Made by a program: the position numbers and the translations under genes
DNA from: Rhizobium sp. 32-5/1
GTDB taxonomy: Bacteria > Pseudomonadota > Alphaproteobacteria > Rhizobiales > Rhizobiaceae
Assembly (NCBI RefSeq): GCF_029537235.1
Contig: NZ_CP120638.1
Span: forward strand, 2,792,501 to 2,856,500
Length of the DNA: 64,000 bases
Direction of reading: 5' to 3'
The notes under the pieces: model-generated
What the model saw: only the letters and a program-made list of their open reading frames with translations
The model's database searches: none
Told to the model about the DNA's origin: nothing
Part shown: piece by piece, positions 59,614 to 64,000 of the stretch
Position numbering within the stretch: the stretch's first letter is position 1
Layout: each line of letters starts with the position of its first letter

Positions 59614-59785
59614 GGGAAGAAGGGATAGCGCGGGCCGCGTTGGGCGTCCATATTTCAATTGCCGAGCTCGGATAATTTTCGAGCAGCAAATAAATGAGGG
59701 CCCTCACAGGAACGTTACTAATTTGTAATCCGGCTCCGGATGTGAATCCCTTGAAAAGCCACATTTGAAACCACAAATCTCAGTC

Positions 59786-59935
59786 AACGGCGTCTGAACA
59801 CGCCGTCATCTGGCGGATGGCCTGTCCCCCGCCGAAGCCGGATGTAAGGACAAAGGCCTATCCCCTCTCCGGGCCTTTGTCCCAGATTGACAAAACCGTC
59901 ATGGCCCCGCCTCCGCCATGACGGTTTTTGTCTTT
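59786..59935 (+). ncRNA. Small RNA between polA and marR (alpha-r7/Smr7C-like)
   Basis: Two strong hairpins stand in the gap between the divergent polA and marR genes. 59848-59882 has an 11-bp stem GGACAAAGGCC / GGCCTTTGTCC with loop TATCCCCTCTCCG. 59892-59928 has a 14-bp stem AAAACCGTCATGGC / GCCATGACGGTTTT followed by TTTTTGTCTTTT, a rho-independent terminator. No protein gene ends here in the plus direction, so an RNA gene is needed to explain the terminator. The rhizobial alpha-r7 family is, to my knowledge, found at this polA-marR position. The 5' end is set only by assuming ~150 nt. The pyrimidine-rich loops may pair with ribosome sites. Confidence 0.72.
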
Positions 59936-63177: not shown

Positions 63178-63227
63178 TCCAAACACCGAAAGCATTTGCA
63201 GGCGCGAACATGCGCGCCTGTTGAATA

Positions 63228-63437
63228 TTAGGCAGCCTGCAGGTTGTCGGCAGACATCTTGCCGGACTTGCGGTCCTTGACGAGCTCGAAGCTGATCTTC
63301 TGGCCGTCGTTGAGGCCGCGCATACCAGCGCGCTCAACAGCAGAAATGTGGACGAAAACGTCCTGGCTGCCGTCGTCAGGCTGAATGAAGCCGAAGCCCT
63401 TGGTGGAGTTAAACCATTTTACAGTGCCAGTGGCCAT
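63228..63437 (-). CDS. cspA: Cold-shock domain protein (CspA family)
   Basis: A 69-residue single OB-fold RNA chaperone. [20 protein letters not shown] contains RNP1 (KGFGFI), and [13 protein letters not shown] contains RNP2 (VFVHI). Length is standard. The 5' leader is long, with no other gene upstream, as is common for cold-shock mRNAs that refold with temperature. Confidence 0.96.
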
Positions 63438-63754
63438 AACGGATCCCTTTCTCTAGCAAATTGTGTTTCACCGTTCGTAAACGCTACGGAACGGCATTTG
63501 TTCGAATCTGAAGGAAAGTTCGTCCGATTGCGCACGATGTCGCAAAAACCAAAGTCATCTAACAAATATCGACAGCGCAGCACATAGGCGACGAGGGCGA
63601 GAACGTCAAGTTTATTTTGCGGAATTTCGCCTTGGCCATTGTAAACGTTGGTTTTTATTCAGCAAGCTGGATGGCCCTTATGAGGTGCTCTCGGCGTGAT
63701 TCAACCGAAAAATGCTGCCAACGGGCCAGACGGCATGACGTAGAAAGCCACAAT
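63438..63754. other. Gap between cspA and the hairpin RNA, no gene seen
   Basis: About 320 nt that should hold the cspA promoter and leader. Short open frames on both strands have no ribosome site or family features. The region is AT-richer than its surroundings. Confidence 0.5.
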
Positions 63755-63920
63755 AAGAAAAGCCCGCGGCCGGGAGGAGGTGGCAGCGGGCTTCTCAAAT
63801 TAGAACCGATCAGCAACTGGGAGGAGGAGTGTTGCCGATCCAGTGGACTTCCCTGGGAGGAGGAGCGGGTTGTCCACATCATCGAAGCTCTGCGGGAGGA
63901 GGTGCGTTGCTTCGATGTTT
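63755..63920 (-). ncRNA. Four-hairpin small RNA array with CCTCCTCCC loops (alpha-r14/NfeR1 or cuckoo-RNA type)
   Basis: On the minus strand four stem-loops follow one another, each exposing CCTCCTCCC, the complement of a strong Shine-Dalgarno sequence. Motif positions are 63894-63902, 63855-63863, 63819-63827 and 63772-63780. Stems are CATCGAAGC/GCTTCGATG (63880-63917), GTGGAC/GTCCAC plus an inner GGG/CCC (63843-63877), GATCGGCAAC/GTTGCTGATC (63808-63840) and AAGCCCGC/GCGGGCTT (63760-63793). The last is followed by TTTTCTTATT and is the terminator. A -10-like TATGCT lies just upstream. Alphaproteobacterial sRNAs with this loop (alpha-r14/NfeR1, CcsR, cuckoo RNAs) bind ribosome sites of many mRNAs. 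Whether this is one transcript or several processed ones is unknown. Confidence 0.85.
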
Positions 63921-64000
63921 GTAGCATACGCCCAATCTGCCTAAATCATAGGCTCGATATTGCAATGCAGCAATGCGCGATACGCAAGGCTAGCGCCACC

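Follow-up and report, generated by a model that had tools for sequence, protein, structure and literature searches.

The window analysed here, a stretch of 64,000 nucleotides, comes from Rhizobium sp. 32-5/1, a member of the Rhizobiaceae whose genome (5.6 Mb in 3 contigs) is assembled with a completeness of 87%. Close to its right-hand end, the minus strand carries a predicted small RNA made of four consecutive hairpins, with a cspA-like cold-shock gene downstream and another small gene upstream, just beyond the window (Table 1). Each of the four loops carries CCUCCUCCC. The longer motif CCTCCTCCC was found exactly 4 times in the window, always on the minus strand, against 0.52 copies expected, and none of 100 shuffled sequences reached 4 copies. 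The ends of the RNA (about 63917 and about 63755) are predicted ones, because they are set by comparison with the SmelA099 RNA of Sinorhizobium meliloti. A simple scan of both strands for promoters and terminators between positions 63200 and 64000 found neither; its terminator rule only admits loops of 3-8 nt and is therefore blind to these hairpins, whose loops have at least 10. From its T-rich tail, hairpin 4 appears terminator-like. On the plus strand, 4 kb from the array, the window also holds a match to the Rfam ar7 sRNA (59785-59930, 105.8 bits).

Table 1. Predicted features of the array locus, in window coordinates
Feature	Position	Strand	Basis or remark
cspA-like cold-shock gene, 69 aa, downstream neighbour	63228..63437	-	PF00313, 86.1 bits
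Promoter-like CTTGAC-N17-CTATGT between sRNA and cspA	63582..63610	-	by eye; unreported by the scan
Predicted sRNA, four anti-Shine-Dalgarno hairpins, about 163 nt	63755..63917	-	fold; ends from alignment with SmelA099 (160 nt)
CCTCCTCCC motifs	63772-63780, 63819-63827, 63855-63863, 63894-63902	-	spacing 47, 36, 39
Hairpin 1 (5'), motif 63894-63902	63880..63917	-	not covered by Rfam ar14; conserved in sequence over 55 four-hairpin arrays
Hairpin 2, motif 63855-63863	63843..63877	-	stem covaries
Hairpin 3, motif 63819-63827	63808..63840	-	stem covaries
Hairpin 4, motif 63772-63780, with T-rich tail behind	63755..63796	-	terminator-like
Rfam RF02344 (ar14) match, hairpins 2-4	63755..63883	-	87.2 bits, gathering cut-off 58.8
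TATGCT, resembling a -10 element, immediately before the predicted 5' end	63923..63928	-	by eye; column GTATnnT conserved in 55 upstream regions
TGCG-N6-GCAT, a box conserved upstream of the arrays and overlapping GCATTGCTGC (about -69 to -50)	63967..63986	-	

Folding of the minus strand gives four hairpins, every loop holding one motif (-68.6 kcal/mol, z -5.77), and none of 200 shuffled sequences was equally stable. When the motifs were held in place and the remaining letters shuffled, all four motifs never fell into loops in 500 trials, the maximum being two. A preliminary description of this DNA had reported four successive hairpins at intervals of about 40 nt with the same motif in every loop; the fold, the motif count and the measured spacing all bear this out.

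We then compared the stems over an alignment of 55 four-hairpin arrays (A1), of which 53 come from 25 genomes of the genus of the window, one from another genome of the same family (G034), and one is SmelA099. Five arrays with three-hairpin units and an extra downstream motif were left out. The alignment also omits a five-motif copy (L124), an N-containing copy (L061) and nine decayed or rearranged copies, and therefore leans to intact motifs. Hairpin 2 is paired in 519 of 569 cells, against a mean of 81.8% and a largest value of 84.8% for permuted arms, with many double changes, and hairpin 3 displays compensatory changes at several pairs (for example, in 18/55 and 15/55 sequences at two pairs), these counts being taken from related sequences and not from independent events. 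RNAalifold had missed hairpin 2 on A1 through a register shift, and its pairs were recounted with the corrected register. In hairpins 1 and 4 it is the sequence that is conserved; they hardly vary and show little covariation. For 49 of the 55 arrays, the predicted fold again placed the four motifs in hairpin loops; it did not for the other 6, including SmelA099 (three of four). The stems covary or are conserved in related genomes. The earlier claim that they are kept by different base pairs holds between the four hairpins of the window, and across the 55 arrays for hairpins 2 and 3, but not for hairpins 1 and 4. Selection on RNA structure, as first proposed, is supported.

The loop, described as fixed, is so in the window RNA but is not always fixed in the genus, since nine further copies outside the 55 have altered loops or fused or missing units. 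Among the paralogues, unit loss by fusion, gain by duplication and loop decay can be seen (L140, L124, L141, L071, L127, L130, L133, L136 and L138), and one copy in the genus has five motifs, from a duplication of its own 3' part. A unit deletion in the copy of genome G013 was rejected: the gap contains N, so that no unit loss can be claimed there.

Relatives of the window RNA

The kinship with alpha-r14 and cuckoo RNAs given in the preliminary description holds: the Rfam covariance model RF02344 (ar14) matches over its full length (1-123) and above its gathering cut-off (Table 1). This model, like NfeR1, comprises three hairpins, and the 5' hairpin of the window RNA lies outside it; the window RNA contains an ar14 match yet exceeds the three-hairpin form by which that family is defined. 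The family, which includes NfeR1 and SmelA075, corresponds to hairpins 2-4, and a box lies similarly far upstream of NfeR1 (as reported in PMC10746234). The four hairpins also agree with the definition of the cuckoo, or RFM SmelA099, group: two to four consecutive hairpins with a CCUCCUCCC-type loop and variable stems. Cuckoo RNAs are reported with 2-4 hairpins (PMC4504443). Homology to SmelA099 extends over the entire RNA, both in a pairwise alignment and in A1.

SmelA099 (S. meliloti pSymA, 1328175-1328334) is like the window RNA in its four CCUCCUCCC-loop hairpins, in an almost identical hairpin 1, in a similar upstream box and in its spacing (37/36/46 vs. 39/36/47), the alignment spanning the whole RNA and the upstream region. 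It differs in the stems of hairpins 2-4, in its replicon and in its neighbours. According to PMC3927594, SmelA075 has three hairpins and SmelA099 four, all with CCUCCUCCC, relatives are given for R. leguminosarum, and the four-hairpin form was already described in 2011. SmelA099 also figures among the sRNAs detected by deep sequencing (PMC2873474). Four units had been presented as unusual, but 25 of the 26 genomes of the genus carry between one and four four-hairpin arrays each, the exception being G009, where no four-hairpin array of this type was found. Novelty of the four hairpins was therefore rejected on what PMC3927594 reports and on this survey. The four-hairpin form is already known, and the window RNA adds a clean four-module member to it.

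Other assignments were less successful. The CcsR1 model (RF02791) reached 25.7 and 16.7 bits, below its cut-off of 65.3, hairpins 1 and 2 together giving only a sub-threshold match, and membership of CcsR was rejected. In the same comparison, matches to Thr_leader, RybB and ar7 were all discarded as below their own cut-offs. The CcsR1-4/ccaF1 operon of Rhodobacter and the CIN1 loci share the loop motif and the serial hairpins with the window array, but there a DUF1127 gene lies directly upstream, whereas the small gene preceding the window array has no Pfam match. AbcR1 and AbcR2 (ar15) resemble it through a reported anti-Shine-Dalgarno type of targeting of transport mRNAs and a reported activation by LsrB (PMC7143759, PMC10746234); they form a separate family, and the host genome has its own AbcR pair elsewhere.

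Proposed upstream control and function

TGCgnnTnGCGCATGGCTGCACTGCAA, located some 70 to 45 nt ahead of the start, and GTATnnT near -10 are common to the aligned upstream regions of the 55 arrays. The upstream box GCATNGCTGC is exact in 45 of these arrays and absent from all shuffled copies, and TGC-N11-GCA is found in 22/55 arrays, vs. 2.2% after shuffling. TGCA-N6-GCAT is exact in only 11 of the 55 regions, with one mismatch in 17 and two mismatches in 25. For NfeR1 of S. meliloti, this last sequence is reported as an LsrB site at -72 to -57, with an NtrC site farther up (PMC10746234). The box of the window differs from the LsrB site by one mismatch and lies at about -69. The NfeR1 signature CTTAGAC-N17-CTATAT is not plainly recognisable at the window, where a -10-like TATGCT is seen by eye but no plain -35, and where the scan found no promoter. 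Elsewhere in the host genome, the AbcR pair is located beside a LysR-type gene, which falls under every NCBIfam cut-off; in S. meliloti, the AbcR pair is reported to adjoin lsrB (PMC7143759). The upstream box of the array suggests a putative LsrB-type control of the window sRNA.

Taken together, we consider that the array very probably encodes a free-standing, trans-acting sRNA that belongs with the alpha-r14/cuckoo RNAs, is built from four modules like SmelA099, and blocks the ribosome-binding sites of many mRNAs. Its transcription, a regulator binding the box, pairing with targets and redundancy of the loops are all features that we infer. Leftward transcription would start from its own promoter at about 63917, under the control of a regulator box near -70, and would end at hairpin 4. 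The stems would keep the motif exposed and the loops would present CCUCCUCCC, the complement of strong Shine-Dalgarno sequences, so that any one loop could base-pair with an mRNA at its ribosome-binding site and block translation. Likely targets would be mRNAs with a strong Shine-Dalgarno sequence, among them many solute-uptake and catabolic genes.

We searched the host genome for GGGAGGAG-N4-10-ATG and found 32 matches, vs. 4 for the reversed control. Thirty of these were examined, two matches being at a single site; 23 of them led to an ORF of at least 50 aa, and 21 distinct ORFs of at least 100 aa were obtained. A Pfam family was found for 20 of these 21 ORFs, and 7 out of 21 are solute-uptake components. 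This proportion would fit transport regulons such as those described for NfeR1, without being proof of them; the three motifs of NfeR1 are reported to be redundant and to act by pairing with translation start regions (PMC10746234, PMC7143759). ntrB, a published target of NfeR1, displayed no special complementarity in the host genome (-11.1 kcal/mol with an assumed start codon; 73% of shuffles at least as good) and was rejected as a shared target.

Copies, unit number and neighbouring genes

The array is one of several copies. Of the six ar14 matches in the host genome, three fall in four-motif arrays; across the genus, nine copies were seen to be decayed or rearranged. In S. meliloti, only one of six NfeR1-type copies is reported as detected by Northern blot (PMC7143759), so that the window copy may be silent. 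A silent or decaying paralogue whose expression has fallen below a useful level nonetheless seems unlikely to us: the window copy keeps all its motifs and stems, and so does the intact copy of genome G023, the two being 85% identical when the upstream region is counted in. These two copies form a pair in a tree of 54 arrays (100/99) that is sister to a group of 18 rows (95/91, the bootstrap not having settled). A similar stretch is present in 536 plasmid records, mostly from Rhizobium and Sinorhizobium.

The number of units also varies, with three, four or five hairpins in the arrays of the genus and eight or nine in other families of the order. This natural variation would fit the proposal that the four loops bind several ribosome sites simultaneously and that unit number sets avidity or capacity. 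The reported redundancy of the three loops of NfeR1 (PMC10746234) speaks against it, and we regard simultaneous binding as distinctly unlikely. An RNA in which any single loop suffices for pairing remains our preferred reading.

Across the order, arrays of eight or nine motifs (allowing one mismatch) are present in 14 genomes of one family, f11, and genome G307 has an array of nine. A pattern for five or more units matched 23 of 397 genomes of the order, but six of these matches are three-hairpin genes in tandem, and another two resemble coding or low-complexity sequence. In L155, L153, L154 and L172 (genomes G406, G313, G046 and G307), eight or nine anti-Shine-Dalgarno motifs are packed into about 300-370 nt. 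The arrays of L155 and L172 lie directly behind a DUF1127 gene (two upstream ORFs checked, both DUF1127). In its spacing and in the gene that precedes the array, family f11 is similar to Pleomorphomonas and Oryzibacter (L215, L243). When named genomes were scanned, at least 118 stretches and at least 84 clusters of four or more motifs came out; among the 84 clusters listed, counted from motifs and not from folds and including some simple repeats in unrelated bacteria, 32 have a DUF1127-like pattern upstream. Unfolded sequence counts reach 14-17 CCTCCTCCC motifs in L224, L202, L229 and L284 (among L181-L298), the 17 of Wenxinia marina DSM 24838 being the most among the matches listed. These longer arrays, with 8-9 hairpins and more motifs elsewhere, resemble the named CcsR/CIN1 loci. 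The location of CcsR1-4 behind the DUF1127 gene ccaF1 and the CIN1 label are already in print in PMC10253847, which weakens the case for long arrays as something new.

The small upstream gene, with its stop near 63990, is intact in genome G013 (L061 451-771) and frameshifted in the host assembly. Its protein is conserved, with a likely membrane segment at the end, and is reminiscent of the ribosome-associated YqjD/ElaB type. In the host assembly, this gene (L005 1736-2055) and ntrC (G000:C1:395052-396454) are each split between frames, which, given the completeness of the assembly, suggests indel errors. The array follows the gene on the same strand, with about 70 nt from the stop to the predicted 5' end, and other cuckoo-type arrays sit directly behind DUF1127 genes. 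The RNA could be cut from the 3' UTR of this gene's transcript, as CcsR RNAs are from the ccaF1 transcript. We find such an origin improbable, since the upstream gene is not a DUF1127 gene and is present at only 3 of the 32 array loci examined, all of this lineage, while the upstream box and the -10-like sequence are common to arrays in other contexts. Transcription from its own promoter is what we retain for the window sRNA.

On the other side, cspA had been given weight as a neighbour, which the survey did not sustain, cspA being no regular neighbour in the family: this copy of the array adjoins cspA in only 2 of the 26 genomes of the genus (the host and G023), and in a third, G013, the conserved stretch leading toward cspA is present and then the contig ends. 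cspA, with its own promoter-like sequence (by eye), is probably a mere neighbour of the array. A broader count in 12 genomes of the genus found a csp gene within 3 kb for 13 of 69 arrays and within 1 kb for 5, where random placement would give 0.54 and 0.20, but it repeats orthologous loci, the independent cases being far fewer, perhaps four or five array lineages by eye, and omits the second domain of two-domain CSD proteins as well as weak ar14 matches. We give little credence to the idea that anti-Shine-Dalgarno arrays recurrently lie beside cold-shock genes in a non-random manner, both cooperating in translation under cold or stress; if it were true, the number of units, 3-5 in the genus and 8-9 in other families, would amount to a tunable anti-Shine-Dalgarno dose. 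That the array forms part of an extended cspA leader and regulates cspA in cis is very improbable: the two share a strand, the array being about 320 bp ahead of the start of cspA, and are conserved together in G023, but hairpin 4 is terminator-like, the promoter-like sequence stands in between, related arrays elsewhere have no cspA downstream, and the sRNA pairs poorly with the cspA start region (-8.4).

For the free-standing sRNA that we favour, the four-hairpin form is general in the genus and no oddity, and the ar14 model of Rfam leaves its first hairpin uncovered. Arrays that differ naturally in unit number provide material for testing the effect of the number of anti-Shine-Dalgarno loops.
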